A DNA stretch of 64,000 nt from assembly GCF_041381155.1 (NCBI RefSeq), contig NC_091134.1, positions 58,497,467 to 58,561,466 on the forward strand, given 5' to 3'. The notes under the pieces were generated by a model. The model was not told the DNA's origin. It ran no database searches and saw only the letters and a program-made list of their open reading frames with translations. Both the position numbers and the translations under genes were made by a program. Below are positions 7,442 through 57,010 of this stretch, piece after piece (the first letter of the stretch is position 1; every line of letters starts with the position of its first letter). Source of the DNA: Argopecten irradians. Its lineage: Eukaryota > Mollusca > Bivalvia > Pectinida > Pectinidae.

Positions 7442-8170
7442 TTTAAACGACTTCTTCTTAATAACCATGATGCCTAGAGACCTGATATTGGGCCTGTAAC
7501 ATGCTGATGAAGGGCTAATCAGTTTGTTTAAATGATTGACCTTGATCTTTATTCAAAGTCACATGGGTTAAATAGACTGAAATATATTTAAACGACTTCC
7601 TCTTAATAACCAAGAGTCCTAGAGACCTGATATTTGGCCTGTGGTATGCAGGTATGCAGGCCTATCAAATATATTCAAATGAATGACATTGACCTTCATT
7701 CAAGGTCACAGGGGCCAAATAAGCTAGAATGTTTGTTTTAACTCCTTCTGAATAACCAAGATGTATAGATACCTGATATTGGGCCTGTGGCACGCTGCGA
7801 TGAAGGGCTACCAAACTGGCTCAAATGAATGACACTGACCTTCATTCAAGGTCACATAGGTCAAAAAGCTTAATATCTTTAAACGACTTCTTCTTAATAA
7901 CTATGAGGCCTAGAAACCTGATATTGGGCCTGTAACATGCTAATGAAGGGCTAATCAGTTTTGTTTAAATGATTGACCCTGATCTTTATTCAAGGTCACA
8001 GGGGTTAAATAGACTGAAATATATTTAAACGACTTCCTCTTAATAACCGAACGGCCTAGATACCTGATATTGGGCCTGTATTAGGCTGGGATGAAGGGCT
8101 ATCAATTTTGTTCAAATGAATAACCTTGACCTTCATTCAAGGTCACGGGGTCAAATAGGCTAAAATAATT
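7442..8170. repeat. ~145-bp tandem repeat, five units, three-unit higher order
   Basis: Units begin with TTTAAACGACTTCTTCTTAA or variants at about 7442, 7587, 7736, 7878 and 8025. Each carries GATATTGGGCCTGT, AAGGGCTA and a TTCATTCAAGGTCA-like core. Units 1 and 4, and units 2 and 5, resemble each other more than their neighbours (offsets ~436-438 bp), so three monomers form a higher-order unit. The monomer resembles ~145-165-bp tandem repeats I recall from bivalves. Confidence 0.85.
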
Positions 8171-9519: not shown

Positions 9520-10081
9520 TTAAAGGGATAATTCGGTCTAAGAGTACATTAAACCTTGCACATATTTCGGAAAACAAACTAGTTCTAGTGGAACTTAGAT
9601 TAGTTGGTTTTACTGTGATATGCCAGAAAAGCTCACTGTAGTCAAATGTACATGTGAAATGATCAATCGCCATTACACATAGCCTTGTATGCCGAACCCT
9701 GACCCTTGCATGTGTAATAAATAATTTTTTTGTCTAGAACTACTCAAAACGCTCTTACAGTGGTGTTAACATTATTAGATGCATGTTCTTGTTTAAAAAT
9801 AATTTCATCAACTCCTCAGTGGTTATACATGTGTATTGCATTTGTTTAACGTGCGTGACTTTGACTCGGGTAAGGGTACAGCGTACATGTTGTACCTGCT
9901 TAATCGTATTGATCAACGATTTGGAATTTCAATGGTATTAATCAAAATACTTAACAATGTTGTGGAATTTGTCACTATTTCTTGTCATATGTTTCATATA
10001 AGGAATGTAGAACAATACATTTATGTCATATTATGCTTTGTGGTTATGTAACAAATTAGCCTCACTGAATTGTCCCTTTAA
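9520..10081 (+). mobile_element. TTAA-bounded MITE-like element, copy 1
   Basis: Bounded by TTAAAGGGATAATTCGG on the left and its inverted form ACTGAATTGTCCCTTTAA on the right. The terminal inverted repeats start at TTAA, as in piggyBac-type insertions. The interior matches 48129-48679 in opposite orientation. A short open frame starting MHLFNVRDF occurs in both copies, but it has no recognised domain and probably reflects shared ancestry rather than coding. Confidence 0.8.
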
Positions 10082-15520: not shown

Positions 15521-16775
15521 CTGGAACACAGAATAAAATTTATATAATATGATTAACTGTACATAGATTGTCCCTATTGCTGATTTTGTTTCAATCTTTG
15601 GTGTTTAATGTAAACCACATAACCACTCTCATTAACAGCACTAGATTTTTATATACCTATATTTGGCTTTATAATTTTTTACACCATAAAACGCTTAATG
15701 TGGACTTTCTGTCGATGCAGACTTCAAAATATTTGCCCCTTTTACAAATATTTGTCATTCATTATAACATATTTCTTAAAATCAGGTGAATCGCTGAGGT
15801 ACTCTTTTCCATACCAACGTATTTCTCATTACAACATTTTAAAATAATAGAAAATGTCTTAATTTATTTCCCGCGGGAAATACGGATGTTATTGCGGTAT
15901 CCATTTTTTATGATTTGATAATAAAAGGTTATACAATGTATTTAATCATTAATTCATACAACAACTGTGCAAGAAAGCAAATTAAACCTCAGTACCATAT
16001 CAAAACTATAGAAACAAGTGTTTGATTGTACAAACCTCAATACAAAATGGTTAAAGCAACACATTTAATAAATCAGAACATGTTCTAAATTACACTCGGT
16101 TGTCGTACAATCACATATTGGATAATTGGATAATTTAGGCATGTATATTTACATTTAATGGTTCTTTTTCTATACATTTGTACTTTTAAAAGCCCATTCC
16201 CTTTTCGAAACAAAGAAACAATTAAAACTTTCTTAAAATAATACAATAATAGCACAAGGAAATATCTATCGATGACCTAAGATGAAGTGACATCACCAAA
16301 CAAATGCAAGGTTTTCTACGTAATCTATGTTAACGATGAAGATTCATTTCGCTGTTTTGTCGTCTGGCGCAATGATAGTAACGGTAATTAAGACGATGTC
16401 GTGAAACATAGGACGACCCGCGTTATAAAAATAAACGTTTACTTTATTTTTAACCAAATTGTTCAGAATGTGATGGTAAGTGTACAATTAACGGTAATTA
16501 ATAACTTTTGTGACTCTATAAAATTATCAATCCTGTTTTCCATTCCCATTTTAAAATTAAAAACCAATTTGGAAAGGTAGTGGACCATTATATATGTATT
16601 TTTGTCGAAAATTTGAAGATTTGGCGATAATTAATACACAATATTCAAAGTTTGTAGAAAGTTCACATATGCTGTCAAAAAAACGATTGGGCTTAAAGTT
16701 ATACATTAGCATAACAAAACAGTTAAGTTTTGCGAATGTTGAAATGCATTTTACAAGTGAAGATTTGCTACCTAC

Positions 16776-16949
16776 TGTCTCAATCAAAGACGCGACTGAA
16801 ATGATGTGTTGTCCTTTAGTAGGTTTACATATGCAAATGCAGTGTTCTTCAGCGGCACCACTTCCATATATCACTGAGACTCTTCTGTCAGCCATCTCGT
16901 TAAAACAGTCTGAGCATAAGGATGTCCCACATGTGATACGGATGCATAT
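16776..16949 (-). CDS. Gene 1, B-type RING exon
   Basis: 174 nt, acceptor TATACAG, donor GTAGGT, phase 0 to 0. It contains ITCGTSLCSDCFNEM, then EEHCICICKP and HIISVASLIET. It corresponds to C-x-H-x2-C-x2-C with Thr at the His position, then the final Cys cluster and the helix that follows the last Cys pair in RBR RING1 domains. The opposite-strand 141-codon frame over this exon is a shadow. Confidence 0.65.
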
Positions 16950-18028
16950 CTGTATAAAATATTTTGTATTCGATAATTGTTTTTTTTTTTTATTTCCTCC
17001 AAAATTGAAGATAACATGAATAATGGCATTTAACATGAAAACAACTAACAAAACAGCAAATAGATATTTATAAGTTCAAGTCTTATAATTAGTAATTAGA
17101 TGAGAATTAATCGTAACAATAAAGATCACCAGCTTCGAGAATAATGTATTCGGCAAAATGTTTCAGCTATACATTGTTGCATTCCACTATCTATGATGAT
17201 ATTCTAGCATAAAGGTACAACTTTTAGACCTGCAAAGTAGCTTGATTTAAAATACATTTTTAATAAACATCGTTCAACCTAACATAACACAACATTACTA
17301 CAGATTTAATAGGAACATCCAAAAACTCTTCTTCTGTTGGGGGGATATAATCCAATGTCAACAAATATTTATGATAAATAGTTTACTTTCAATGGTAGCA
17401 AGAAATTTATTTTAATTATATTACTTTTTGTATAGCAATCCATATTAAATACCTGTAACTCTTAACAACATGAAAAAAAAACAATATATATATATAAATA
17501 TTTTTTTTAACATAAAGGAGTCACTTCATGCATAAACGAAAATAACTTACATTAATTAATTAGATATATGCATGTAAACTGAAATAGTCTATATAAATTT
17601 CTCATCTATCTATGCTGTAACTATCTTATAAAACATTGTAAGTAAATGCTTAAATATCAATTTGGTGGCATTTTTGATATAGTATACACTTGGGGTTGTT
17701 ACTAATAAGTAAGATATTATGCTTTAAAAATATGTATATTTTAAGATATCTAAAATATTGCTCCTGAACTACCACACGGTTCAGCATATAACTAAACTGT
17801 TAAAGATTAAAGAAATGCAAATATGGCAACTCAAACGTTGCAAAATTCAACAATATATATATTCAATAAATAAAAATATTTGTTCTACCCCTATAAAATA
17901 GTTTCTATATAAACTCTATTGACAAAAATGCCAATAAATGAACTGTTCCGTCGAGCGGTCCAAAGAATTATTAAATGTGCTGTTGGACCGGAGTGACGTC
18001 ACAATGGGGTATAACAAAACATTTATCG

Positions 18029-22740: not shown

Positions 22741-23356
22741 CAAGAGGCCATGGGCCTTAACGGTCATCTGACAATTGGCACAGTACAACATAGTTGTTTA
22801 AAGATTTTAGCCTATTTGACCCCTGTGAATGAAGATCAATGTCATTTAAAAAAAAACCAAATATGGTAGCCATTCATCCCAGCATGTCACAGGCCCAATA
22901 TCAGGTCTCTATGCCTCTTAGTTATTCACAAGAAGTTGTTTAAAGGATTTCAGCCTATTTGACCCCGCGCCCTTAAATGAAGGTCAGGGTCATTTTATTT
23001 GAACAAACTTGGTAGCCCTTCATCCCAGCATGCTACAGGTCCAATATCAGTTTCCTGGGCCTTATGGTTCTTGAGAAGAAGCCGTTTAAAAATTTTAGCC
23101 TATTTGACCCATGTGACCTTGAATGAAGGTTAAGGTCATTCATTCGAACAAACTTGGTAGCCCTTTATCCCAGCATGCTACAGGCCAAATATCAGTAGCC
23201 TGGACCTTTCGGTTATTGAGAAGAAGTCGTTTGAATGAAAAGTTTACGCATGGCGTACGGCGCACGGCGGACGGCGGACGGCGCACGACGACGGAGGGTG
23301 CATGATGACAATAGGTCATCCTTACCCTTCAGGTCAGATGACCTAAAAAGGGCCTG
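22741..23356. mobile_element. Element with internal ~145-bp repeats and inverted ends
   Basis: Starts CAAGAGGCCATGGGCCTTAA-CGGTCATCTGAC and ends GGTCAGATGACCTAAAAAGGGCC, giving imperfect ~20-bp terminal inversions. Inside are about three to four units of the same monomer as the 7.4-kb array, in opposite orientation, then a GC-rich CGGCGCACGGCGGACGGC run. It resembles bivalve non-autonomous elements that carry tandem cores. Confidence 0.8.
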
Positions 23357-34432: not shown

Positions 34433-36360
34433 GAAACGAAAACGAAAGTAGTCTGGGTCTTTTAAAACCCACGTCTACTTTCGACTTCTATGATTCAATC
34501 AAAAACGAAAATCGGTGTGGTATCGTTTCACTCGGTCTCACAATTAGCGACATAAATCTAAATCTCTAATGGATGATATAGTTTTAAAACAGTTCTTAAT
34601 GATTTTAGCTCAACCGGCCCGAAGGGCCGGTGAGCTTGTGTCATGGCGCGGCGTCCGTCATAGAGTTCTGCATGGAATGTTACCAAATTTGGCCAGAAAC
34701 ATCCTTGGGGGAAGGGGAACAGAGTTTGTATATATATTTTGGCTCTGAACTGGGAACAGAACCACAGAATGCATTATATTTGGTCTGATAGTAATATACA
34801 CGTCTAATGTAGCAGTTCTGGGACTCCTCGATATCGTTTGTTCCTGACACGCTTAAGGTTGTCTTAAGCTTAATCAAGGCAATTCCTCTCATTTTCCAAT
34901 TACTCCCGCAATCAGCCACCTTTTAGCACTACACAAAGTGACACCCACAAAACAGAGACTGAGGGTACGCCTTCTACTGTACCCAGGGAAACTGAAAGTC
35001 TATGCCTTATACTCCTATTATGGTTACAAAAATAACCTCGAAAGGACGGTCACAATTTAATCATACACCAACATTCAGAACAACACAGGAAAAGTTCATA
35101 TCAAATATATGTAGTATTCATACAAAGGAGAGAATAATGAAAAGTATTATCCTCATATAAATACAATGTAGAAACACCTGGGATAACCGATTATTCTAAA
35201 TAAAATAAAAATGGTCTCAAATCCATTAATCAATCCAAAGTATCACCATTGAAAAAAAGACCGACATCATTAAATTTTGTTTACGTCACATCCATTTTCT
35301 GTACTATTGGTTCAACTTCCTAGAATTTACATTTACTATCCAAATGAAGGGGACATAATTGTGATAAATCACCAATATGATAACTGGCATCATTTTTAAG
35401 TATAACTTTCGTTTTCCTTTATTGATGTAATGATAAGATTTGTTATCATCAAATTAATTTATTTATACTGGCCGATTGAAATTGCGTCATTCAACTGTAA
35501 AATAACTGACTTAACGGATCTCTCTCAGGCGATATCGGTAGTTCGTGATGTCTAACAATATTATAAAGCAGTGTTGAAAAAAGATCCGTTCATTATAAAA
35601 AAAATCCCTAATTTCTTTTGTCGTTTATTAAGATTTTAGAAATTATTGAGGGTGCTTTTGAAATGAAGAAAAAAATCATTTTGCTCCTTCTGATAGTCAT
35701 TACAATATAAACAGAAAGTAAAAGCTAATACGCTGTATCATATTTCAGGAAATAAAATACTGTAATGCCACAAATGTGTGATCGATTTAAATCATTTTTG
35801 CAAGATTAATACGGTTAATTATTGAACATTGTACGACATAGTAATATCTTTACTTACGTTTTCGCACTTTCAACCTATATCTTCATCCTCCATTGATCTT
35901 AAATATGACACCAAAAACCGAAGCTAAGGTTGAGACGGTGACTTGATATTCAAACAGAAAATTTCCTCTCTGAGTGTATTCTGTAATAGAACATTATCAT
36001 AAAATTCCTACTTGCGTTTTCGTTTTGAAATTGGGTTTCTACTTTCGTTTTCGCTATATATTGCCATTGCTTGTAATAAGAAAAAAAGTTTTACTTTCTT
36101 TTTCTCTTTGAGCAATTTAGAATTTAGATATGTCATTTTAAAAATATTATAGATGACAACTATTAACTTTACTTTCATACGTACATATGTATACATTGTA
36201 TACAAAAAATAATTTCGAACTCTAAACTCACACAGGTGTTTGTATGACTCATGGTTGATAAGTATAAACTTCCGCTTTCGTTTTGTAAAGCAGAGTCGAG
36301 TGTTTTAAGTGTTTGGATCTCATGGTGCACATTGTTGAATATATCTTTCGTTTTGCCTTG
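34433..36360. promoter_or_regulatory. Cluster of ISRE/IRF-like GAAAACGAAA sites
   Basis: Sites matching GAAANNGAAA occur at 34438-34447 (inside GAAACGAAAACGAAAG), and in reverse as TTTCGTTTTC at 35407-35416 and 36043-36052. One-base variants occur near 36017, 36276 and 36343. They lie upstream of and in intron 1 of the plus-strand gene, and between two divergent starts. GAAANNGAAA is the established binding core of interferon-regulatory factors. Function here is inferred. Confidence 0.5.
34604..34780 (+). repeat. Bivalve-type repeat fragment with CCGGCCCGAAGGGCCGG start
   Basis: TTTAGCTCAACCGGCCCGAA then GGGCCGGTGAGCTTGTGTCA forms a terminal hairpin, followed by GGCGCGGCGTCCGTC and an ACCAAATTTGGCCAGAAACA-like stretch. 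I recognise this head from abundant mollusc repeats. The copy is truncated. Confidence 0.7.
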
Positions 36361-39081
36361 GAATTTTTCTTAGGAATGCAGTGTTTTTAGGCGATATTGT
36401 TTCGTTAACGATGCCGTGTGAAAATATGACAGTTTCTACACGAATAAAAAGGTGAGCAGACAGACGTATGCGTTGTCATGGAATAGCCTAAAATCTATTT
36501 TTATGTATACACATTACTGACGTAGTATTAAAATCAATTGATAACTGGTGAGTCTTGTTTCCTCATATGTTTGATCGTTATAAATAATATACTTTTTATT
36601 CATAGTTATATACATTCTTACAAGACTACAATAGCATTTATACCTATATTTATATACATTATCCAGTTTACTATCAATATGTTTTATGGTTAAAGACACC
36701 AAACAAATCGCATTATTTCATTTCAGATGAATAGGGGAAAATGAAGAACCTGCCTATATAGATCCCTTTATAAACACCCCTATATATAAAGTGCAGTGTT
36801 ATGGTACGTAGGGATCTCGAAAGAGTTTATATGGTTATAAATCTAAACTAGTTACAAATGTAACGAATTCTTATGCTTTCTGAAACATGGATTCAAAAGT
36901 AAATTAGAAATGTAAAGTTTATGTGTGTGTTCCTGATAAAGTCTTAACGTTAATTTCCCTGGTTTACACATAGTAATCTGTATGTTTCTGTTTGTAAGGG
37001 ATCTACTCCAGCCAAACACAATTCGAAAAATAACATTACCAAACAACTTCCTGTGACAAATAACGACACGTGTATTTTGAAGAAGGAAGATACCGGACAA
37101 CAACAACCACGTGTGTCAGACACAATCACAGAAACACAGGACAATGGTAATACTAAAACTATATTGTAGTAGAAATCATATTGTTTCAGCATTTATCGCA
37201 CATGAAATTTAAAAATTTAAAATCGTTAATTGCATTTTAAAGTAATTAGTGCGAGTGTTTGACTTGTGATAACGGCTTCAAAACAGCAAATACAAAGACA
37301 AAAAAATATATTGAATGGGAAAATATATCTCTTGCTATTATGTAAAGTATAATTTGAGTTCAGGTTTAATGAGAATAAAGTTGAAAGACTTGCTTTATTT
37401 TAGATTTATGATTATAAATCAACTAAAACAATATTTGTTCACTTGCAGAAATCATTGATGGGTTAGAAGGGGGTCACACCCAACCTGGGAACAATACAGA
37501 CATTGATGGCCGGGGACATGATACTGTATCAGAGGTTTTGATTTCTCCGTCGCTCATTTAATGGAATTGTTTTAAGCTATTTTCTCAGCACATTCCATGA
37601 TAACAAATGAGATCAACTAATTGAATGTGCAGACGTTAAAAGACATTGAATCCTAATTTGTTTATAATCTATCTAGTTAGTTTATCTACGAACAATCAAA
37701 TTCAGTGTATTTTATTTTAAAACAATTAATGCAATACACATTTACTCTAGATGTTGTCATAAAGAGTTAAAGTAATTGTAAGTTATCTGTTTTCAACATA
37801 GGAACGCGCCACAGATACAACGTATACAGACAGAAAAGGTAATATTAGTACATTTTATCAGATACTTCAGTAAAGCAAAGACGAAGTTGAAAGAATGAAT
37901 ACAGGATTTTTATGTCAAGAAGACACAAATAGGTAATTGATCAACGCCTAGACATAGGAATGGTATTTATCAGTATTTAAGTACTTATATGCCAGACATT
38001 GAACAGTTTTATATACCTGTAAGTTTACATTCTAATACACATACTGTTATGTTTTATTGTTTTGAATTGATTTATTGTATTCAGAGGAATGCCAGTTACC
38101 GGACAAAGATTGTGTCCAACAAAGCGTGGTAATGTATTTAGTTTAGTACAGTATATGGGAGATAACTCTGGAAACCTTGTTTAATAAAACCGTCAATATA
38201 AATATAACAAATATCTACTTAATTGTTTAAAAAGTATATAAAGATAAACAACTCATGGTATCATAAAACGTTAATGGCAGATATCAGAAATACGACCTTC
38301 ACATTCAAATGGTGGCATTATCATGTATACATTCAATTATCATTACTTTTAACCATTTATGTAAATATTATTATATTATATTCATATAATCCAATTATGA
38401 TTTTCCAATGATGTTTTACTGATGAGATTCCAATGAGAATTAGTTCATATGTAAATGTTGAAATATCATTTATTGATACATGCTACGTATGTTTACATAC
38501 AATGTAGGAAAATACGAATGCCGAAAACATACAGAAAACGAAATTAACAACCGAGGAGAGTGCATTCCATGACAGAGGTATGGCATATTATAAAGCAATG
38601 CGTTAAAATCTCCTTAAAATATTTGAATGATCACATTGATATCACTTAAGTTTTTAAGGCAAAAGATCGGTTTCAGTTGATTTATCACGTTACTGGTGAA
38701 ACGGTTTTACACGGATGTGTCTTATAATGGCGAAAGGGCTATTTGAAATTCAAAGAAACCCAACATTTAAAGTACCTTTAGAATAATTCATGTGAGAAAT
38801 AAAATCAACATTGTCGATATGGTTACCTTCTTTCAGAGTCAATCAAATCGGATGACCGTAAAAGCGATGGAACGAAAGAAAACAATGACGGCAGCGAAGA
38901 AAAAAGTGAATGCAATACAGAACAAAGCAAAAAGAAGAAAGAAGATGATGCAGAGAACAACAAGATAAACAAAGAAGACATTGCAGACAAAAGCGAGGAA
39001 AAGAAAGTAGACAATGCAGACAGAAGTGATGGAAATCTGATACGAGTATCCTTTACAGAGTTAAACAAGTTATTTAATTAG
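35905..39081 (+). CDS. Seven-exon gene for a charged, disordered protein
   Basis: Exons: 35905-35937, 36999-37146, 37449-37534, 37802-37838, 38085-38128, 38508-38577 and 38837-39081. All borders are AG/GT (donor at 37535 is the weaker GTTTTG), phases fit throughout, and TAG is at 39079-39081, giving 220 residues. Product: MTPKTEAKVET at the start; Gln/Asn/Thr/Asp-rich middle; last exon rich in Lys, Glu, Asp and Asn (KSDDRKSDGTKENND, SEEKKVDNADRSDG), ending VSFTELNKLFN. No signal peptide, membrane segment or known domain is visible, so it is probably intrinsically disordered. A possible extra exon at 36727 was left out because it brings a stop. The gene diverges from gene 1 across the ISRE-like region and has a decayed duplicate at 43.2-48.1 kb. 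Function unknown. Confidence 0.7.
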
Positions 39082-39584
39082 GATATACATAAACGTCATA
39101 TGTCTTCTCCTTAATTATCTCCCAGGGCCTTCCAAATGTTCATTCGAGCACATGTTACATTTCTTCACTCATCCAGGTAAGTCATTTTAAGTCATATGCC
39201 TAACTGTTCACAAATATCTACAGGAAAATAGCTGTATACTGACCGACGATGACGTAACATGTCTTTCCACAATACAACGAAGGATTTTGGAATATTTTTT
39301 CGCTACTGTCTAAACAAGGCTATCTATCATAATATCAAAGCTTTTATCTAAATAAATCTTGACGGTAGTTTTCTGCTGCTTAAAGACAACGTTTATATTT
39401 TCTACATATAACCAATAAAATACATTTAAATACTGCGCTTCTCTTGGTTGAATAATGAATATTTTCGTATTACAGGTTTTGGCATAAACGCCAGGCTTCA
39501 TGAATAAATTGGTGGGATAGACGGAACCAATTCCAGGATGTGTTCCAAGGATTAGGAGCGTTCAGAAAATATCACATCGAAGTC

Positions 39585-41565
39585 AATGAGTCGGCGAAAC
39601 CTGTCATACATCCGCCACGACGCATGCCTGCTGCTTACACAACAAGTTAAGTTAGGCGTAATTGACCGACTCGTAGAACTGATTAGGTCAATTCGATGGT
39701 GATTATTACGAAGTCGAATGGCAAATTACATATTTGTTTAGACTCGAAAGATTTAAACCGTGCGATAAAGTGAGAGCACAGCCCTATGCGGACAATTGAT
39801 GACGTCACCTCAAAAGTGTCTGGTGCGAAAATATTTTTCGAAGTTAGACGCTGAGTGCGGATTTTGGCAAATTGAACTTAGATGAGCCGAGTAGTCGTCT
39901 GCACACGTTCAAAAGCCCGTTTGGACGCTACAAATTAAAACGCCCCCTTTCGGTATTTCCAGTGCGCCAGAGGTATTCCTACGCGTCATGTCAGAGGTCT
40001 ATGAAGAAAAGGAGGGCGTCGAGACTATAGTTGACGTTATCCTAATTTGGGGCGAATCGCGTGAACAGCATGACGCGAGACTACGCGTCCTTTATAAAAA
40101 AATATAAGATTTAGAATGTATGATGTATTTGATGAATTTGTGAGCACCGAAGGCGTGAGATTTTGTTGTTTTGGGGGTCCTGCATAAGTTTCTCCTCCGG
40201 GAAAAAGTCCTTTAGCAAGCTCGAAAGCACAATCTGCGTCTTAATAAGCAAAAGTGTAAAATTGCCGTCACAGACATACAGTATATTGGACACACACTCA
40301 GTGTCGAAGGTCTGAAACCTGACCCGGATAAGGTCGAAGCAATTTCCAAAATGCCGGAACCGACCGACAAGCAAGGTCTACAACGATTCATGGGAATGGT
40401 GCAGTACGTGGCAAAGTGTCTGCCAAATCTTTCCCAAAAAAGTGCGCCGATCAGATAACTACTGGAAAAAAATGTCGTCTGGCATTGGACTGAACAGCAT
40501 AGTAACTGTTATCAACGGCTAAAAGAGATGATGTCGTCAGAACCAGTCCTTAAATAATATGAACGTCAATAAGCCAGTCACACTTTCAGTCGATGCGCTT
40601 GACAGGACTCGGAGCAGTGTTGCTGCAAGACAATCGATTCGTAGATTATGCGTCAAAATCTCTCACTTAAGCCCAACAGCGTTACCCGCAAATAGAAAAA
40701 GAGACGTTCGCTATTGTCTTCGGTGCCAAGAAATATCATCATTATATTTTCAGCAATACCGTTACAATACAATCAGACCATTAGCCTCTGAAAATAAAAT
40801 AAAATTGTGAAGAAACCTCTGCATCTTGCACCTGAAGTATTTACCTGAAAGTCAAATGTTATTGCAGTAAAGTTATTGTGGCCGACGCGTTAAGTCGTGC
40901 TAATCTCAAAGAGGAAGCCCCGGATTTGGAGGACGAATTCGTAGTACACTCTCGTTCTAACAGTATGAGACAGTAAAATTCAGGAAATCAATCGCGAAAC
41001 AGAAAACCCAGAGTGGAACAGTTATCACTCACTGTAAGTCTCAGTTCGCACGACACGGCATACCGGACATATCAATATCGGATAATGTACCGCAGTATGC
41101 GTGTGCGGAGTTTCGTCAGTTTACAGAAATGTATGGGTTTGAACACCGAACCTCGAGTCCAACATTTCCACAGTCAAATATAATGGCCGAGAAGTCCGTA
41201 CAGACAGTGAAACGTCTGCTGAAAAAGGCAGTACAAAGTAGGCAAGATCCTAATCTCTCACTTTTAGATCTGAGAAATACACCAACGTCATCGTCAATAC
41301 GATCTCCAGCCCAATGGTTATATGGAAGGAGAACGCGAACCTTACTCCAACGTCTACAAGTCTGTTACAACCGAAAGAAGAAACAAAAGTGAAGGAGAAG
41401 CTTAAAATGAAACGTCAAGAACAAAAGTTCTATCATGACCGCGGATGTTATGAATTACCTCCCTTGGGCATGGAAGATAACTTCAGGATTCGTCAAGGAA
41501 GTAACTGGCAGCCAGGTCGCGTTGTAGAATTCGACAAAATTATCGATCTATAATGGTGCATTCGA
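39585..41565 (+). mobile_element. Broken Ty3/gypsy-type pol (RT, RNase H trace, integrase)
   Basis: Pieces in several frames: VIHPPRRMPAAYT, KSNGKLHICLDSKDLNRA, MRTIDDVTSKVSG (reverse transcriptase start, 39600-40090); QYIGHTLSVEGLKPDPDKVE and LQRFMGMVQYV (RT/RNase H connection, 40215-40440); then GIPDISISDN, EFRQFTEMYGFEHRTSSPTF, VQTVKRLLKKA and SPAQWL (integrase core, 41030-41340), and FRIRQGSNWQPGRVVEF near the end. About 100 bp of repeat R material (40095-40205) is inserted in the RT. Gag, protease, most of RNase H and both LTRs are missing, and many stops and frameshifts are present. A dead copy. Confidence 0.85.
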
Positions 41566-43187: not shown

Positions 43188-43566
43188 AAAGATTTAAGAA
43201 ATGCTTTAGGGATATTTTGAAAAGAAAAGAAGAAGAAGAAATAAAAATTGTTCCTTTTTATTTTAGAGAGAAAGTAAAAACTAATACACTGCTTTACATT
43301 TCAGGAAACAGAAATATTGAAATACTGTATGTTCGGTTTAAATATTTTTTTTCAAGATTAATAAGATTAATGATTAAACGTTTTACGACATGCATAGCAA
43401 CAATTTACTTACGTTTTCGCACTATCAACCTATATCTTCATCCTCTTCTATTGATCTTTAATATGGAACCAAAAACTGAAGCTAAGGTTCAGACGGTGAG
43501 TTGATTCAAACAGAACCTTTCCTCTCGGAGTGTATTCTGAAATAGAACATTTTCATAAAATTCCTA

Positions 43567-43900
43567 CTTGCGTTTTCGTTTTAAAAATTGGGTTTCAACT
43601 TTCGTTTTCGCTATATATTACCATAGCTTGTAACTAGGAAAAAAATTCTACTTTCGTTTTCTCTTTGAGATAAGTTAACAAATTTATGTGTGTCATTTTA
43701 AAATATTGTAGATGACAATTATTAACTTTACTTTCAAATATACATATGTATATACAAATAAAATAATTTTGAACTCAACTTTTAAACTTATGACTCAACG
43801 TGGATAAGTATAAACTTCCGCTTTCGTTTCGTAAAGCAGAGTAGAGTGTTTTTGTGTTTGGATCTCATGGTTCACATTGTGGAATATATCTTTCGTTTTG
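43567..43900. promoter_or_regulatory. ISRE-like sites in the duplicated 5' region
   Basis: TTTCGTTTTC at 43600-43609 and 43652-43661, a GAAACGAAAG variant near 43822, and TTTCGTTTTG near 43890. The second exact site is absent from the parent copy (TTTCTTTTTC there). Sites survive although the coding exons are broken. Confidence 0.45.
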
Positions 43901-44420
43901 CCTAGAAATTTTATAAGGAATGCATTGGTTTTCACCGATATTGTTTCGTTAACGATTTTGTTTGGAAACACGGAAGTTTCTATACGCATGAAAAGGTAAA
44001 GCAGACTGGCGTATGTGTTGTCATGGAATAGGTACACACATTATGTATACACATTACTGGCGTAGTATTAAAATTCATTGATAACCGATGTGTCTTGTTT
44101 TCCTAACTTGTTTGATCGATACATAGAACACACTTTTTATTCATAGTTATATTATATGTACATTCTTGCAAAACTATAATAGCATGTATACCTACATTTA
44201 TATACATTATTGATAAGTTTAAACTTCAAGTTTACTGTCAATAGATTTTATGTGTAAGGCACAAAACAAATCGTATAATTTCATTTCAGATGAATGGCGG
44301 AAAATGAAGTACCATCTTACACAGATCCCTGTCACTCCTATAGAAAAGTGCAGTATAATGGTACGTAGGGGATCTCGAAAGAATTTATATGGTTATCAAG
44401 TTTAATATCTATGAACAATA

Positions 44421-45434: not shown

Positions 45435-46661
45435 ATTACGTTTCATCTTCCTTACTTATTTTACATTCTTCAGTCTGGTTAACATGGATTACAAATTTAA
45501 ACTATAGGAATAAAGATTATAACAACAACTTTATTTGTGTGTTCCTAATCAAGTCTTAGCGTTAATTGTCAGGTGTTACACTCAGTAGTCCGTATGTTTT
45601 TTGTTTTGAAGGGATCTACTCCAGCCAAACACAATTCGAAAACCTAACATTGCCAAACAATTCTTCCTGTGACAAATTAACGACAGCAAGTATTAATTTG
45701 AACAAGGAAGATCACGGCTCAACAACACAACAACGTGTGTCAGACACAATCAACAGAAAACACAGGACAATGGTAATACTGAAACTTTAGATATATATAT
45801 TGTAGTAGAAAATCTTGTGTCAATCCTTGTTGCAGATGGGATTCTTTTTGCGCTAATTCTTGAAAGCGCTAATTGCATTTCAAGTAGTAGTTATTGGTGC
45901 GAGTGCTCGAATTTGTCATTATATATTAACGGTTTCAAAAAGGTTAATCAAAGTTAATGATAATTACGTTATGTAATTCTGGCTATTATGTATAGTGTAA
46001 TTTGAGTTCAGATTTAATGAGAATAAAGTTGAAAGACTTGCTTTATTTTAGATTTAGGATTATAAGTCAACAATTACAATAATTTATTTATTTACAGAAA
46101 TCATGGATGGATTAAGAGGGGGTCACTACCCAACCTGGGAACAATACAGACATTGATGATCGTGGACATGATACTGTATCAGAGGTTTTGATTTCTTCGT
46201 CGCTTCCACTCAAAACGAAATTGCTTTTTACTAGATTGAATTGTTTATTTATTTTTATCGAATTGCTTAAGCTATATTTTCTCAGCACATTCTAAGATAG
46301 CTCATGAGAACAACTAATTGAATGTCCATGCGTTAAAAGACATTTTAATCATAATTTGCCCTTTTTTATCTATCTAGTTAGTTTATCATTCTACGAAGAC
46401 AATCAAAATCAGTGTGTTTTTATCTTAAAAACGAGTAACGCAATACACATTTTACTATAGATGTTGTTATAACGAGTTAAGGTAACCCATGTAAGTTATA
46501 TCTGTTTTTATCATTTATGGAAACGCTGGGCACTACAATACATAACGGATCTTTAAATCATTAGAGAATAGAAAAGGTAACATTAGTTATGATTTTATTA
46601 GATATTTCAGTTAAAGTCAAGACTACGAAATGATCTAGAATGAATACAGGATTTTTTTATA

Positions 46662-47375: not shown

Positions 47376-48128
47376 ACAAAGGAAAGACTCAAAATAGGTT
47401 ATTGATGAACGCCTAGACATAGGAATGGTAGTTTATCAGTATTTAAGTACTTATATGCCAGACTCTATGCTGAACAGTTTATTATATCTGTTTTGCGCGT
47501 TATTTCTAATTCAGCATTGTGTTATAGTTTTAGTGTTTTGAATTGTTTTATGTACTTAAGAGGAAGGTCATGTTTCGGTACAAAGTTTGTGGGACCTACA
47601 AACCGTTGTGGGTATATGTGTTTTAGCTTAGTGCAGTTTGAGTTGGGTGATAACTCTGAGAAATCCCTTGGTTTGATAAAACCGTCAATATAAATAGAAC
47701 GTATATATTCTCTACTGTATTGTTTAATAGTATTTATAGATTAATAACATACTCATGGTATCAGATAGTATTCGTTAGATGGCAGCATATCTCGAAATTC
47801 GACCTTATCTTTCTAAATGGGTGGCTTTATCATGTTACATTCAAGTATCATTTCTTTAAGCTTTTATGTAAATATTATTTTTTTTTATTCTTATAATCCA
47901 ATTCTTTGATTTTCCTTTGATGTTTTACTGATGAGATTACTGATGAGATTTTGTTCATAGGTACATGTTGTTAGTTCATTTTTTTGATTCAATGCTTCGT
48001 TTGGGTCATCCATTGGAGGATTTGATTTATCGAATGCCACGAAATCATAACAGATAACGAAGAATTTACAACCGAGGAGAGTGTATTTTCCATTAACCAT
48101 GGGCGCGAAATCTTCAATAAAAATAGGT

Positions 48129-48679
48129 TAAAGGGACAATTCAATGGGGCTAATTATGTTACATAATTACGAAGCAACATTCCTTATGAAACATATAACA
48201 AGATATATTGACAAATTCCACGACATTGTTAAGTATTTTGATTGATACCGTTGAAATTCCAAATCGTTGATCAATACGATTAAGCAGGTAAAACATGTAC
48301 GCTGTACCTATACTCGAGCCAAAGTCACGTACATTAAATAAATGCAATACATAACCACTGAGGAGTTGATGAAATTATATTTAGACAAGAACATGCACCT
48401 AATAACGTAAACACACTACTGTTAGAGCGATTTGAGTAATTCTAGACAAAAAAATTCTTTACTGCACTTGCAAGGGCTATGGTTCGGCATACAAGACGTC
48501 CGACCACAGTGTGTAATGGCGGACAACAAGCGAGTTTGAACATTTCACATACATTTCACTACGGTGTGATTTTCTGGCGTATCACAGTAAAACGAACTAA
48601 TCTCATTTCGATTAGAAAAGGTTTGTTTCCTATATATATGCAAATTTTAATGAACTCTAAGACTGAATTATCCCTTTAA
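48129..48679 (-). mobile_element. TTAA-bounded MITE-like element, copy 2
   Basis: TTAAAGGGACAATTCAATGG at the left and TGAATTATCCCTTTAA at the right. It is homologous to 9520-10081 in the opposite orientation, including the MHLFNVRDF frame on the minus strand. It lies about 100 bp beyond the last recognised exon of gene 2. Confidence 0.8.
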
Positions 48680-48780: not shown

Positions 48781-48854
48781 CTCTCCGAATCGTGCTAACT
48801 GTATCATCAAATACTGAGGAGCTGAGGACAAGAGAGGAGTTCGAGACGTGGTCG
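48781..48854 (-). CDS. Gene 2, USP strand P-x-YLMIQLARF
   Basis: 74 nt, acceptor TTGTACAG, donor GTATGT. It enters with two bases completing a Thr codon and leaves in phase 0. It contains LLSSAPQYLMIQLARFGE, equivalent to the LPxxLxxxLxRF strand that follows the finger region in USPs. It is the last USP exon found. A TTAA MITE begins about 100 bp downstream, and no exon with the His box (H-x-G...GHY) was recognised at lower coordinates. Confidence 0.8.
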
Positions 48855-51800
48855 CTGTACAACAGAAAAAACATGGTGTATATAGCACTAGATGGAAAAT
48901 GAATTGTAAGAACAATTAATAAGATAAATACCGTAGAAAATAATTGCCTTATACTAACTATTTTTATTCTAGGAAATCTGGAATGAACTGCAGAATTTTA
49001 GAATTTTAGAATTATGATAGGGCACCTTTTTGACGAATTAAGCCTTATGTTGAGACATTGCCTTATATACGTATACACGTATAGCGAAGACTACAGTATA
49101 ATGACAAAGTGACATCCAAATCACTAGTATTAAAAACATATTTTATACATTACAAAAATATCTAAAAATACAATTATCATATCGTCACAACAACATATGC
49201 TGAGGTAAGAGGGTATAGTTACTTGCTTTCCTAGGTATTACAAATTAAGATTGTCTATATCCTTACTGTGTTCGTCCTGTTTTGTACATTCTCTGCATGG
49301 TACTTGATTATGTGTGAAGTCTTCACTTTTGAAGTATAAGTCGAGTCCACAATGAATGGATGTCTAAAGGAAGAAAATTGGTAATTCATTATTATTCAGA
49401 TGAAATCAAAGTAAGCTATACTAATGTACTGCATTATGGCTTTAGGTCTTTATTTTGATCTAAAATGTTATCATAGTCATATAGATTTTTGGAAATCAAT
49501 TATTAGAACAGTACAATTGTGTTTTGTTTATTCTAAAACCACAGAACGTTATACAGTGACCTTGACCCCTGATACAAGGACCTTGACCTCTAGACCACTG
49601 CAATTGACATATGGTCAATTCAGTTTTTGTTTAATTCCTTAAAGGTACACAATTAAACCGAAACGGATTTTCTTTTTTAATGTTACTGTGAAACGAAATT
49701 GATGATTTTGTAGAGTCGCAAAAGTTTAAGCTTACCGTTAATCAATACTACACTTATCATCACCTTCTGAACGATTTAATTAAAATAAATTAAATAAATA
49801 ACAATTGTCATAAAAGGGGTCGTTTTAGTTTTCCGTCGTCGTCCTGATTACCGCGCGTTCGTTAATTATCAGTGCGACAGACGTTAAACAACGAAATGAA
49901 TCTTCGCTTATCAATAACTACATCAATCATATATTACGCAGGGAATCTTGCATGTTGTGTGTTACAATCGTATCCTAGGCCATCGATATTTTCCCATGAT
50001 ATTTTCGTTTTTAAGAAACGTTTAAGTTTTGTTTCGAAAACGTATTGGGACTTTAATAAACCTATATAATATATACTGTTTTAGTATGTCAATGACACTA
50101 GGCAAGGACAGGCAGTGGTCCTTTAACAAAGGCATCTTTAGCTCATAATGGAATGAATGATTTGGTTTTGTGCTGTATGTCTTATTAATACCCAGGGCCA
50201 TTAAGGAAGGTTGGATTGAGGAAAGCCGGATCTATGGTCAGTGTCTGACAACTGCCCCACATAGGATTGGTGGAGGGCTAGTGGTGATTGGTCGGAGACC
50301 TATTTCAGTGTGAGCATTAAAGATATCAATCATTTCATATTTAGTAGACATTTCAATGAACGTTTAATCATAAGTGAATTCCAAATCTTCACACTTTGAA
50401 AATGCAATATAAAAAATAAGTACACAGATACATTTTTGTTGATTTCATTTGATACTATGCTTATTTCAAAGGTATGATGATATAATGAGAACTTTTAATA
50501 TGTGACTGTTATTTTTGTCATATTAATAAAATCTATGTTTTTGTTTTATTTTTTTGTTTGTTTTTTATTCCAAACAATGTTTCTACAAAAATACATTTGC
50601 CACATATACATGTAAATTACTCCAATTTCCTTCCATTCTGGCATTTTTCTCTCATACACTAGAAATAACATTGTTTTTTATTATCATTAATGAAAAGGGG
50701 GCGGGGGTAAGAAAAGAAATAGCAAGAAGAATGAGAAAGGGGGGAAGGAGGTAAAGGGAGATAAGGGTATGAAGAGGGATGGAATCCTATGGTATATACA
50801 GTGATCTAGTTTCCCAAAAAGCATAGTTTCCTTATTAATTGCAAAAGGAATAAAAGGAATATCCAAAAGGTTTTCAAAATTGGCTAAAAAAATTGAACTT
50901 CAGAGCATTCCCAAAAAAGGTGTGTGATTGTCTCCTTAATGTACGTAACATACATTGAGGATTATTTGAAAGACCATTTTTACAAAGATATGTATTTGTT
51001 GTTAGAATATAATGGGAAATTCTGAACTGAAGCCACTGAAGTTTAGTATTATTAGTAGACATGAAGGGTATATTGTATATTTGTTTCCACATTTCTTAAT
51101 CGTAGTCAAAAGAGGTTCCCCATTTATGCTGGCCAGTTATAGCCATATCATTTTTAACTAGCACTCTGTAAAAATCTTGGACTCCACGATTATTTTTCAA
51201 TATTAATTCAAGGCTAAAGGGAATAATTGGATGAAATAATTTTTCATTTGGTGCAATTATTATAATTATAATTCATTCGAACTTGAAAATGCTAGTTTAT
51301 ACTATATAAATTACCACATCCTTTGTTGCTGATAACAGCAGGGAGTAGAACAGCTGATCAGCAACATTTTCAGTCTACAAAAAGAATACGTATGGTATAT
51401 AGCAAGTACATCTTTCAGATAGAAACAGCATGTAAAAGTTACATGGTATGTTTAACGAAAGACATAAAGAACTGTCATGCAACTACTTCGCTGTTTCGCT
51501 CAGTGATTCTTTTCATAAACAGAAGGAAAGGATTGCATTCATCTCTAACTTCTAAAACTTCACGGATTCAGATTCACCAAAATTCGCGAAATTTAGTGTA
51601 GAGAGATTTTTGTTTTAAATCGTGATATTTGTTTTCAAAGGCTAAGAAAATGGATCCCAAAAATAACCCCCGGAATAAGTTCCAAAAAGCAAATCGCAAA
51701 ATTTTACACCCATGAAACAATACCAAATATACAGTCATCCATTGGCTATCGGCCATGAGAACTAAATATATAGGATAACATACAGTTATATATTATACTT

Positions 51801-54800
51801 CTAACAAACTCATCTAGATAAACTTTCGTACGTCTGAAAGTTTTCCAAAGCACATAAATGAAATGTAAGACAATATTTTGATATCAACGTACGTGGTTGC
51901 AAGTACTATACTTGAATTTACTGGCAATACGGCTTTCAAACAGTTTGGTGGGACAGGTATCTAAAAGAAACAGAAATCAAATACAAATGTTTAAATGTCA
52001 GTATAAGATATTATATTAAATGTGCATTACATAGTATACATTTACTTTTATACTGCACTTTCCATAAAATGTCTACAAATTCCTTTATACTGCAGTTTGT
52101 GCATTAACATTATTGAAGTATATACGGTAACTGTCTTGGGACAAGTAATGATCTACTTATTTGGAAGTCAGTTTGACCGTACAAAATAACTTTTGAATAA
52201 AGATTGTGCGACAAATAACTTTAACAAAAAGCCTTATCTGTATGTTTGCTTTGTGTTACATCTTTCGTGATGTCCACACACCTCGCTTGTTATCTAGGAC
52301 GGATAAGTTAGAATGGCGCCAAACCTAGTACGACACACATTGTGTTGTTGTTTTTATTTTAAATATTATACGTCTGTAAAATACACAGGTGAAAGCCTAG
52401 AAACATTAATCATATGGAGATCCTTACCGTCTCTTCTTGCAGTACTACCGTCTTCGTGTGATGTGGATCTTCGACCCTAAATTGTAATGGCAAATTTAAA
52501 TTCGATATTCAATATACGAATATTGGTAAAAACATTCTAAATTATATAACTATCGATGTAAGTAAGGAAGTTAGCTTTTTAGTGGTCATTAAAAGGATAT
52601 TGTCTGGTAGATATTGGATCTTGAACGACACTTATAATTTACTTTTGTTTAGATAGAGAATGTATCAGGTGAAAGACATACGTGTATAAGTCAGTAAAGT
52701 GTAATATTCAAAGTAAGCATTGTTTTATTTACTAGCCATTCAACTTGGCACTGATCTTGTATACTGCATGTAATAAAAATGTAGATAATATTGCAAGTAT
52801 GGCGACGTATTCCGCAGTTGCATATTTGCTTACTAATTGACTCTGGAGGGCAGATATTAAATTAACGTCATAATCAGTGTGACGTCGTTTTCTCACAGAT
52901 ACGTGAATTAACTATGTAATATGCTAGGAATCAGCTACAGTATTTATACATAGAATACCGGGGTTATCTTGACACCACGAAAAATGAAAAAAGAGAAATA
53001 AAAAAAAATGGCGACGTTAAAAAGAAGTCATTCGGTTCAAATCTTCCTATTAGTTAACAGTTTAACATACCTCCGAACTGTCTTCTGCCCTGGAATTGGA
53101 TGTTTCATCCATGCCGGTTCCGTCCAAAAATGAGTTTTCTAAGTGTAAATGAAATATACAAAAACTATACGATTTATTTTTTTCAAACATCTTTTGACTG
53201 CAAGTTGATGTAGATTTGACATTGTTTCTACTTCATTCATCCCCCTCCACCCCTCCCGACAAGGACCATCTAGGGACATCTATGGATTACGTAGCTGTTT
53301 CTAAATTTTTGTATGGAACTTGTACATTTGATAAGTTTGGTATTCTTGTTTTATTTAAATGTAAATTCTAATATGAAGAAAACCATAATCAAATTTCTAT
53401 ATTCTGCGGCTTCGGATCGCAGCCCCGTTGAGCATTTCGATAACGGAATGGGCAGATATGCAAGTATTTTAATATGTACCAATAGGTTTGGGTTTCTTCT
53501 CCTTCCTATCTTCATCTGTTTTCGCTAAGGCGTTGAACAAGGACATGATGAAAGAATGACAATCATTCTCCTGGTATCGTTGGAATGATTGATCCCTGAA
53601 GGAAAAGGTGTCCTCTAATTACTTTAACATATAAAGAGTTATTTCGACGAAAATGCTAAATGGAGAACTTTACCTTATGCCATATGTTTTTTTCATATAC
53701 CAAAAAAAACCTTTATAAAACGGAAATCAGTTTACGTTCTTCATTTATTTTAATTTCAAAACGTAACATTTTAAAGCAATCTATATCATTACTTAAAACA
53801 CGATTTTTGAATAGTTAATCCTAAACGAAACTGATGAAAAGTGAATATTTCATCAAGCCATTGATGGAATGTTAGGTGGATTGGCGAAATGTAACTTACA
53901 AAGTAAATATGGCGTGCATCAGTTTGTTCATCGAATCCCAGTTAACGCTGAGGTTTTGGCTGTTTCCCGCCTTATTAACATGTGTGAGAAGCTCATCCAA
54001 ATGCGCTGCCACGCCATGCTGTAATAGATATAGTTCGTACAATTGTATTGACAAATGTACTTCTATATACTTACATGTTTTCTTTTTATATGCAATATTA
54101 TGTTTTTATGTAAATGTTAATATATCACAATGTTAATAATAACTTAACTATTTAGAAAGGAAAAAACATAGAACGCTCTAAAAATATTTTCAGAGGGAAA
54201 CACATTATTTTGAATACTTTACCTTACTAGTGCCGTTGGCGAATTCGCGCAGCATGCTTGTGAATTTTGGTGTCTGTCCGAGAACCTTAAAAGTAACTCA
54301 TTGTTAGTTACATATTTAATCACATGACGATACTGTGAAATTATTGATTTTTGTTAACCTCAATTTTCGTGGATAAAAATATTCATAATTTCGTTGGCAC
54401 TTAAATTCGTGAAGACGACCATAGTAAACATAGTATGTACTATCGTTCGTACAGATGTACTACAACATAGAATAATGAATATTTTAAATGCCGGACGATA
54501 TCTCTCGCGAGTAGTTTTTTGAGGTATAGAAGTATACGCTTATACTATAATGGTGTGATTTATAAGGGCGAAGTTGTGTGATAACACTGCTTATAATTAT
54601 TGTCTGTTTTAACTGTTACGAAAAACGATGAAATTTTATGGGGACGTAAATTCTTTGGTTTGGTAAAAACGAAACTCAATGAATATAATGATTTCACAGA
54701 ATACATTTTGTCGAACGAGGATAAATTCATCAGAAGTATTGTTTATGTTATGTTTAATTTGTAGAAAATTTGAATATGTTGTCAAATACATAATGGGACT

Positions 54801-57010
54801 GAAGTGTACGACCAGTATTTTCAAATTTTATCAGAAACGTACGTACTTAAGTGATACTTACTTGCAGTACACAACTAGCGTAGCATGTCAAACCGACGTT
54901 TGGTATACCCTGTCAAGGCATAAAGAAACAGTATCTAAATATATTAAAACGTATATATTAACTGCTATTAGTACATAAAGTGACTTTTTCTTGCGTTTTC
55001 ATTTATTCAGTTCCCGGGCACTATTTAGCTGTTTGGTACGTACATTCGGGTAAAACTACCCAAAGGACAAAGAAAAAAAATGGTGTCCATAGTCAAATGG
55101 TTTATAAATAATCTAATAATATATCTAATAATCTTGCATAAAGTGTACATTTTTAGTATAAAACATACACTTTTATTTATTTAAAATTAATGCTATCCAT
55201 GTGTTCTATTTATTTATTTAAAATTAATGCTATTCATGTGTTCTATTTATTTATTTAAAATTAATGCTATACAGGTGTTCTATTAAATCAACTTACAGTT
55301 ATATCCATCGCTTCTGTTTGTCTTGGGTTCTTAAAAAAAAAAAAAAAAAAAGCTAACACTCATATCATGTGCAGTTATGTCGTGTTAATATCCCAAGTAT
55401 AACATACAGGGTACAATCAATTTAAATAAAGAAAATATACTTTGATGCTAAAGGTCAAACGAAAATCTTAACAAAATCAATGAAACCTCAGATGATACGC
55501 CGAAATCTGAATAGAATAAGTAGTAGTATTAAAACTTTTTATACGACAAAAAGTAATTTTTAGCCAATTGTATTCATTTCCATAGTGCAAGATAAATTTA
55601 CAACTTCAACTGAGGATTTGTTTTTTTACACATAAATCATGGTTCGATTTGGATATTTTTTGTGGCGAAAAGAATATAAAAGACCTAATGCATATCACAT
55701 GTATCTTCCGTTCAATTAATTCAGTATCAATGTAGTAAATCAGATATTTGTGTGAAACCCAAATAATTCAAACTAGATATACTTACACAAGCGGGGGCCA
55801 TACATACGACTTCGTCTTCGTAGCTGTGTTGTTGCTCCGAAACACAAATGACACATAGTTTGTGTCCACAGGAAGAAAATCTCTTCCTTATATCTCGCTT
55901 CTAAGTAAAAGAAAAATATATGAAAATTCAGCTAATTATTTTTTGCAATTTGTTTTTATCATTGACATATCAATGTATGATAAGTAACGGAAAAATCATC
56001 AACATTGACCTCCTTTTAACGTATTATCATGACCACCTGATATCTGTAACAAAACATTATGTACAGAGGATCCAAATTGTCTTTGTCCTAGTGTTGTACT
56101 GCTGTATTAAAGGTCATGAGTGACTAGTATTTTTATGCAAGAAATAGATGAAATAAAAAGCAAAAACATTACTTACACATTCGTTGTTTGCCTTACAAAC
56201 GGGATTGTCACAGATGGTTTTATTCTGCAAAAGATATTTAAGGAATACAACCATAAGTATTGTGTGTTAATGTAATCCGAAAATAAAACTTCAACTTGTA
56301 ATTAAAAGCAAGATAAATTTTACTCAGGAATAATGCTTCGACGCTTTAATTAGGCTGTCAAAATTGTTTTAATACAAATATACTTCTGAGCTTTTCAGTT
56401 CGCTATCTAGTCGCATTGTTTTCTAAATTACAAACACGATTGATTATTCTTATTTCAAGTTAGGTTGTATATAAACTAAGTATATGTACCATCGTTTATA
56501 ATATATATATATTGTATATACAAATTATAAAATACCATCTCGATATGTAGATATTCCTTAATGACGCTGGTTGGCACTTGTGTTTTACAAGTAGGCATAC
56601 TACCATAATGACAAATCACTGTTTCTCTTCCTGATGTCTTGATCAAAACGCAGTGCTCACAAAAACGATGCTTGCATTTACGAAATTCAATTACGGCCTG
56701 AAAAAAGGTAATAATTATTCTTTGATGATGCCAATTAGAATCCAGTATTCGGTCACGTGATGTACTAACTTAAGATTTAATATGAGAAAAATGAATCTTT
56801 ATTTAATATGAGAAAAATGAAAGATTCATGTTTATGCATGTCCCTTACGAAGTGTAAAACATACCAATCACCGTATAATATAAGATGCACACATCAAACA
56901 AGATAATTTAAGATATGAAAACATAAAGGAGATAATACCTGTTTAAAACATGAGTATTGGTCGCAATATCGGTTGTAAGGATTTTTACTCAGATGCAACG
57001 ATGGCTTGTC
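48781..57010 (-). CDS. Gene 2: tandem RING-like modules fused to a USP domain
   Basis: Fourteen minus-strand exons, 5' to 3': 57010-56939, 56697-56536, 56224-56177, 55900-55787, 55329-55297, 54909-54862, 54285-54223, 54018-53900, 53595-53480, 53138-53071, 52476-52428, 51960-51893, 49363-49267 and 48854-48781. Every border is AG/GT and every junction keeps frame, giving at least 377 codons. The first four exons make two RING-like modules. Then come an 11-residue linker and a USP (peptidase C19) domain. USPs cleave ubiquitin from proteins; RING/RBR domains bind E2 enzymes. The product could therefore edit ubiquitin chains, probably in the cytosol (no signal or membrane segment seen). The final USP His box is missing from the window and the 5' end is uncertain. 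Not assigned to a named gene. Confidence 0.8.
49267..49363 (-). CDS. Gene 2, USP finger exon with VPCREC
   Basis: 97 nt, acceptor CTTTAG, donor GTAAGG, phase 0 to 1. It contains TSIHCGLDLYFKSEDF and VPCRECTKQDEH. The C-x2-C matches the second Cys pair of the USP finger. The first pair would be split with the previous exon (STCNH, then IHCG), with wider spacing than usual. Confidence 0.75.
51893..53138 (-). CDS. Gene 2, USP insert and LF-x-S finger start (three exons)
   Basis: Exons 53138-53071 (NSFLDGTGMDETSNSRAEDS), 52476-52428 (GRRSTSHEDGSTARRD) and 51960-51893 (TCPTKLFESRIASKFKYSTC). The first two encode a Ser/Asp/Arg-rich, probably disordered insertion between the QQD box and the fingers, a common place for insertions in USPs. 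The third matches the conserved LFxGxxxSxxxCxxC entry to the finger region. Phases are 2/0, 0/1 and 2/0, all consistent. Confidence 0.75.
53480..54018 (-). CDS. Gene 2, USP helical region and diverged QQD box (two exons)
   Basis: Exon 54018-53900 reads HGVAAHLDELLTHVNKAG and NLSVNWDSMNKLMHAIF, the L-x3-L...W...L pattern before the QQD box. Exon 53595-53480 reads FQRYQENDCHSFIMSLFNAL, aligning with Q-Q-D-(S/A)-H-E-F-L-x2-L-L-D-x-L. Asp and His are kept, but the second Gln is Asn and the Glu is Ser. A basic tail (DRKEKKPKPI) runs to the GTACAT donor. The codon split at 53900/53595 is restored as Leu. Confidence 0.8.
54223..54285 (-). CDS. Gene 2, USP helix after the Cys box
   Basis: 63 nt, acceptor TTTAAG, donor GTAAAG, phase 0 to 0. 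It reads VLGQTPKFTSMLREFANG, the usual LQ-x-L-x2-TP-x-(F/L)-x3-L continuation after the catalytic Cys box. Confidence 0.8.
54862..54909 (-). CDS. Gene 2, USP catalytic Cys box
   Basis: 48 nt, acceptor TTGACAG, donor GTAAGT, phase 0 to 0. It reads GIPNVGLTCYASCVLQ, against the USP consensus G-L-x-N-L-G-N-T-C-Y-x-N-S-x-L-Q. The catalytic Cys, the preceding N-x-G and the closing LQ are present. The oxyanion-hole Asn of GNTC is Leu and the later Asn is Ser, so activity may be reduced. Confidence 0.85.
55172..55283. repeat. Three ~37-bp tandem units
   Basis: ATTTATTTAAAATTAATGCT and then an ATCCATGTGTTCT-like half, repeated three times with single-base differences. In a gene 2 intron. Confidence 0.85.
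55297..55329 (-). CDS. Gene 2, 33-nt linker exon
   Basis: NPRQTEAMDIT. Phase 0 to 0. The acceptor AAG is preceded by a T tract of about 19 bases (an A run on the plus strand) and the donor is GTAAGT. It joins the RING-like part to the USP Cys box. It is very short, so it rests on splice sites and phase only. Confidence 0.55.
55787..55900 (-). CDS. Gene 2, B-type RING exon 2
   Basis: 114 nt, acceptor ACTTAG, donor GTAAGT, phase 0 to 0. It contains RFSSCGHKLCVICVSEQQ, then VVCMAPAC. This gives C-x-H-x2-C-x2-C and a final C-x4-C, the spacing of the second half of an RBR-type RING1. Paired with the A exon 56177-56224. Confidence 0.8.
56177..56224 (-). CDS. Gene 2, A-type RING exon 2
   Basis: 48 nt, acceptor TTTGCAG, donor GTAAGT, phase 0 to 0. 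NKTICDNPVCKANNEC: a C-x4-C pair plus one more Cys. First half of the second RING-like module. Confidence 0.7.
56536..56697 (-). CDS. Gene 2, B-type RING exon 1
   Basis: 162 nt, acceptor TTTTTCAG, donor GTATTT, phase 0 to 0. It contains EFRKCKHRFCEHCVLIK, then VICHYGSMPTCKTQVP and SVIKEYLHIEM. C-x-H-x2-C-x2-C is intact. The last pair is C-x7-C. The following VP..VIKEYL matches the helix after the last Cys pair of RBR RING1 domains (compare FIKKLM in gene 1). Confidence 0.8.
56939..57010 (-). CDS. Gene 2, A-type RING exon 1
   Basis: 72 nt, acceptor AATATCAG, donor GTATTA, phase 0 to 0. It contains KNPYNRYCDQYSCFKQ with a C-x4-C pair, like the gene 1 A exon at 22252-22323. Confidence 0.7.

Follow-up and report, generated by a model that had tools for sequence, protein, structure and literature searches.

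A20 (TNFAIP3) combines a deubiquitinase with zinc modules on a single chain; its deubiquitinase is of the OTU rather than the USP type, and its zinc fingers are of a type of their own and lie at the C-terminus. In RING fingers, the first cysteine pair is C-x2-C and the residue before the second Cys contacts the ubiquitin-conjugating enzyme (E2). Here we describe a minus-strand gene from the scallop Argopecten irradians in which two tandem modules of C3HC4 type precede a USP-type deubiquitinase domain. The gene lies in a 64,000 nucleotide stretch of contig NC_091134.1 (RefSeq assembly GCF_041381155.1, positions 58,497,467 to 58,561,466), defined as “the window.” Among the matches listed, titles and abstract openings of the literature on ligase-deubiquitinase combinations and on scallop ubiquitin genes described no RING-USP protein, and the excerpted text of PMC11354881 names none.

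Gene layout and scallop homologues

The splice model comprises 15 exons, from 57010..56939 to 48854..48781, with GT-AG at every border (Table 1). It reads as a single open frame of 397 residues with 0 stops or frameshifts. The model was drawn by eye and then checked by script, and the borders were picked to hold the frame open; therefore, the support that counts is that which is independent of the model. Protein searches identified an NCBI entry named “ubiquitin carboxyl-terminal hydrolase 30-like [Argopecten irradians]” (P0001), which agrees with the splice model at 340 of 340 residues, starting from model residue 58. P0001, also a database prediction, spans the join from 55.8 to 54.9 kb, the step on which the initial annotation of this DNA had staked its fusion. 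That annotation counted 14 phase-matched minus-strand exons; the in-phase chain was retained, but the count is 15. Its placement of C-x-H-x2-C-x2-C modules ahead of a USP domain is borne out by the exon chain, the UCH match and the layout of the Pecten homologue described below.

The UCH model (PF00443) matches residues 143-395 of the window model with E = 9.9e-19 (68.4 bits, against a gathering threshold of 23.9). The match covers profile positions 1-158 of 254 and ends ahead of the His box. The Cys box, the QQD-like box and the LMIQLARF strand are present, in agreement with the annotated USP domain. The annotated finger Cys pairs were found in the second knuckle (PCREC), but the first knuckle (YSTC) has one Cys.

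A Pecten maximus protein, “ubiquitin carboxyl-terminal hydrolase Usp2-like isoform X2” (P0002), aligns over 100% of the query with 50% identity. It comprises module 1, module 2, the linker and a complete USP, with 51% and 57% identity in the two parts, and scores 150.2 bits against UCH. P0002 carries the His and Asp/Asn boxes, GGHYTS at 497-502 and CSDSSV at 515-520, within which we take the catalytic residues to lie, and solved USP folds match its structural model. Given that P0002 holds both modules and a complete USP, the fusion occurs outside this window as well. Judged from the sequences compared, this is a real gene layout common to two scallop genera, complete in Pecten and lacking the USP end in Argopecten.

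The Ylistrum balloti protein “putative ubiquitin carboxyl-terminal hydrolase 50” (P0004) has a module-1-like stretch followed by a related USP C-terminal half, with 55% identity over 36% of P0002. The oyster protein LOC134242600 of Saccostrea cucullata (P0003) shares 24% identity over 64% of the query (E 1.7e-12); only UCH-type Pfam models match it, and inspection by eye revealed no zinc modules in its N-terminus. The same order in other molluscs, suggested as a check by the initial annotation, was thus detected in Pecten, but the oyster protein shows no such modules by eye and the Ylistrum case is weak. A module-only protein search (P0002 residues 36-192) recovered P0002 alone among 16 candidates. 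Because P0001 escaped this search too, despite carrying module 2 and being of eligible length, absence elsewhere says little. The USP profile search returned 11 matches and is incomplete, as P0003 is absent from its list though included in the profile. Phage records gave no match to P0002, and NCBIfam gave nothing useful. A restriction of the layout to scallops is suggested.

The two tandem zinc modules

Each module has eight putative ligands in C3HC4 order, that is, C-x4-C, C-x-H-x2-C-x2-C and a last Cys pair whose spacing ranges from C-x4-C to C-x7-C. All 16 putative zinc ligands (14 Cys, 2 His) are common to Argopecten and Pecten in the alignment, and three of the four modules have Pro two residues ahead of the last Cys. 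Module 1 is split over exons 1-2 and module 2 over exons 3-4. Each exon pair has phase-0 ends, a pattern indicating that a two-exon unit was duplicated in tandem. When module 1 was compared with module 2, the score was 54 in Pecten (reached by 0 of 2000 shuffles) and 43 in the window copy (reached by 22 of 2000). The C-x-H-x2-C-x2-C pattern occurs three times in the six-frame translation of the window, twice in the USP gene, and was not detected in 30 Markov-simulated windows. The third stretch, at 21302 (-), reads ECNHFACLMCCDC..CTICRASF and is IAP-RING-like by eye; no Pfam RING model matches it at E up to 0.5.

A profile of the four modules matched 13 PDB sequences, all of them RING proteins (TRIM30, 1; TRIM32, 2; MAT1, 1; RING2, 9). 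The control, a single permutation of the columns other than Cys and His, returned two sequences, one RING (TRIM69, E 0.96) and one non-RING (E 0.4), both with lower E-values than the 13. The control weakens the PDB E-values, and the composition of the match list still leans toward RING. With the Ylistrum stretch added, the profile matched 29 sequences, 14 of which are RING by name (best TRIM30, E 0.11); the other 15 are mostly photosystem I iron-sulfur protein. We refer to the modules as RING-like, not RING, because the best RING model falls below its cut-off. Across the four modules, the position just ahead of the second Cys is occupied by S, S, V and N, and because this E2-contact position of RINGs is not conserved, we hold docking to be more likely than ligase activity.

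The label “RBR-RING1-like,” used in the initial annotation, was over-specific. No Pfam IBR or RING2 model matched the window model or P0002, with HMMER filters that drop most matches above ~0.1. Of the Pfam comparisons that annotation had proposed, UCH exceeded its gathering threshold, but RING stayed below cut-off and IBR was unmatched. An assignment as an RBR ligase was rejected, given the lack of an IBR/RING2 match, the repetition of module 1 by module 2 and the USP directly after.

The missing USP end and explanations for the locus

With tblastn, no credible match in the window was found to the C-terminal 100 residues of P0002 (446-546). A three-sequence profile of the USP C-terminus, searched over the six-frame open reading frames of the window, gave a best E of 1.5, and the eight GHY-coding sites in the window (5.6 expected by chance) have no credible His-box context. 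There is also no clear match in the window to the first 40 residues of P0002 (1-40), so both gene ends are open. P0001 runs on beyond the donor site of exon 15, ending VCLNQTFNRILWITF. A duplicated block sits where the USP C-terminal exons are expected (Table 1), and the simplest reading is that an insertion or rearrangement removed these exons; a fault in the assembly could mimic such a truncation. Because no His/Asp segment was found, we filed the window copy as a truncated relative, not a working USP, and it is probably not an active protease. The initial annotation had overlooked the absence of this catalytic end.

Table 1. Exons of the USP gene and adjoining repeats (window coordinates)
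Feature	Position	Strand	Basis or remark
Exon 1: first Cys pair (C-x4-C), module 1	56939..57010	-	Splice model; matches P0002 41-67, E 0.007
Exon 2: C-x-H-x2-C-x2-C and last Cys pair, module 1	56536..56697	-	Splice model, motif count
Exon 3: first Cys pair (CDNPVC), module 2	56177..56224	-	Splice model, alignment
Exon 4: C-x-H-x2-C-x2-C and last Cys pair (CMAPAC), module 2	55787..55900	-	Splice model, alignment
Exon 5: short linker NPRQTEAMDIT, modules to USP	55297..55329	-	Splice model; RQT common to P0002
Exon 6: USP Cys box GIPNVGLTCYASCVLQ	54862..54909	-	Catalytic Cys codon 54885..54883, counted from exon start
Exon 7: USP N-terminal half	54223..54285	-	Splice model
Exon 8: USP N-terminal half	53900..54018	-	Splice model
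Exon 9: QQD-like box (QENDCHSF)	53480..53595	-	Splice model
Exon 10: variable insert inside USP	53071..53138	-	Splice model, alignment
Exon 11: variable insert inside USP	52428..52476	-	Splice model, alignment
Exon 12: finger, first knuckle, single Cys (YSTC)	51893..51960	-	Splice model, alignment
Exon 13: USP middle part	51315..51374	-	Splice model
Exon 14: second finger knuckle (PCREC)	49267..49363	-	Splice model
Exon 15: LMIQLARF strand; last USP exon found	48781..48854	-	Splice model
Interspersed repeat	48128..48679		~100 bp past exon 15; inverted copy at 9520-10081, 79% identity
Duplicated block	43269..48087		Matches 35713-38566 in three pieces (43269-44399, 45527-46656, 47384-48087), 74-80% identity; direct segmental duplication

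Elsewhere in the window we identified a second USP Cys-box-like pseudo-exon, GLPNVHSSTCYISSLIQ, at 39126-39179 (+); the piece that follows it, at 39467-39511, contains an in-frame stop. Joined with X at the stop, the two match UCH with E 0.0097 (16 bits, against the cut-off of 23.9). Charged exon-like stretches precede the pseudo-exon, and this may be a truncated plus-strand USP paralogue. Retrotransposon remnants at 40216-41389 (+) match RVT_1 (0.01, below cut-off) and the integrase core rve (2.7e-08, above cut-off), and we read them as Ty3/gypsy type. Another retrotransposon piece, at 883-1617 (+), matches zf-RVT at 1.5e-05 and 26 bits, just under the curated cut-off of 27.5. Blocks of ~145 to 600 bp are repeated within and between 7442-8171 and 22792-23238, inverted between the two. 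In an open reading frame at 16560-17075 (-), a Cys-rich stretch lies within a below-cut-off match to DUF7685 (E 0.0014, 18.9 bits against 27).

On balance, we consider it probable that the gene represents a USP of the scallop lineage that docks to a target or partner through its RING-like modules, with the window holding a truncated and perhaps decaying copy. The gene would encode a USP-type deubiquitinase with two tandem C3HC4-type modules at its N-terminus, each built from a unit of two exons in phase 0. Where the homologue is intact, as in Pecten, the USP would work as a cysteine protease. The modules would serve for docking or targeting, with a substrate, ligase, E2 or partner as the binding target, and so may steer deubiquitination to particular targets. 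The A. irradians copy would be truncated and hence probably inactive as a protease, and it may be decaying. Even if the modules serve only for docking, the layout is an unusual one for a USP.

Several observations weigh against this interpretation. None of the curated Pfam RING models reaches its cut-off, the best being RING_XB3-XBAT31 (E 0.0014, 19.1 bits against 50). Single modules matched 13 Pfam families over five modules, including the non-RING families zf_UBZ (0.0088, in one of the five modules), DNMT3_ADD (0.038) and PHD (0.082). The 13 PDB matches represent only four distinct proteins, with E-values of 1.4-4.5, all above 1. The modules have a predicted local distance difference test (pLDDT) of 22-39 in the AlphaFold model; in a further model of P0002, 526 of 546 residues have pLDDT <50, and the VIA-align rows span 187-546 only. 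All the proteins compared are database predictions. P0001 begins at a Met within exon 2, and so is without exon 1 and part of module 1, and no start codon or first exon of the window gene was found. When the P0004 stretch was compared with three modules, the scores were reached by 59, 76 and 740 of 2000 shuffles, and the P0004 model is without the Cys-box and QQD stretches. The docking role itself is a guess from anatomy.

It is quite possible, if short of an even chance, that in A. irradians the entire locus has recently become a pseudogene, with a working gene in other scallops only, an explanation that overlaps the one above. Neither the USP C-terminus nor the N-terminal exon was found, a repeat starts just past exon 15, and a second USP Cys-box pseudo-exon with an in-frame stop is present (39126-39179 and 39467-39511). 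However, the 15 exons have no stop or frameshift over 397 residues, NCBI lists a protein product, and the truncation could be mimicked by an assembly fault.

We regard as unlikely a dual-function scallop enzyme, in which the modules would build ubiquitin chains through a recruited E2 and the USP would trim them, by chain editing or self-deubiquitination with an A20-like logic. The shared ligands in C3HC4 order, the full USP boxes of P0002 and the Pro near the last Cys are consistent with such an enzyme, but the variable E2-contact residue, the C-x4-C in place of C-x2-C and the sub-threshold RING matches argue against it. If the modules were working RINGs, a RING ligase and a USP would occur within one chain. 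A one-chain ubiquitin editor, whose tandem RING-type modules build chains with an E2 and whose USP removes them, and whose truncated copies act as non-proteolytic ligases or decoys, is distinctly improbable. Wrong merging of an adjacent zinc-finger gene and a USP gene by gene prediction is very improbable. In its favour, the homologues are database predictions and P0001 begins inside exon 2; against it, the identical join and RQT linker occur in two genera and exons 4, 5 and 6 connect in phase.

Comparison with known systems

The scallop proteins resemble A20 in pairing zinc modules with a deubiquitinase, and we claim no sequence relation. Like the USP family (USP30, USP2, USP46 and USP16/45), the scallop proteins have the UCH domain, the Cys box, the QQD-like box and the CxxC of the second finger knuckle, but the family is remote in sequence, the best PDB phmmer match being to USP30 at 1.6e-05. 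Among the matches listed, four of the five named USP16/45 bear PF02148 (zf-UBP), not tandem RING-like modules. The scallop modules have the C-x-H-x2-C-x2-C core and eight ligands in common with the C3HC4 RING fingers of TRIM30, TRIM32, MAT1 and RING2; unlike these, they have a first pair of C-x4-C and a last pair of C-x4-C to C-x7-C, and the E2-contact residue is not conserved. In comparison with the window copy, which ends at LxRF, Pecten P0002 has an extra N-terminal stretch and the full USP, and this intact protein lets the ligase, docking and protease roles be told apart directly.
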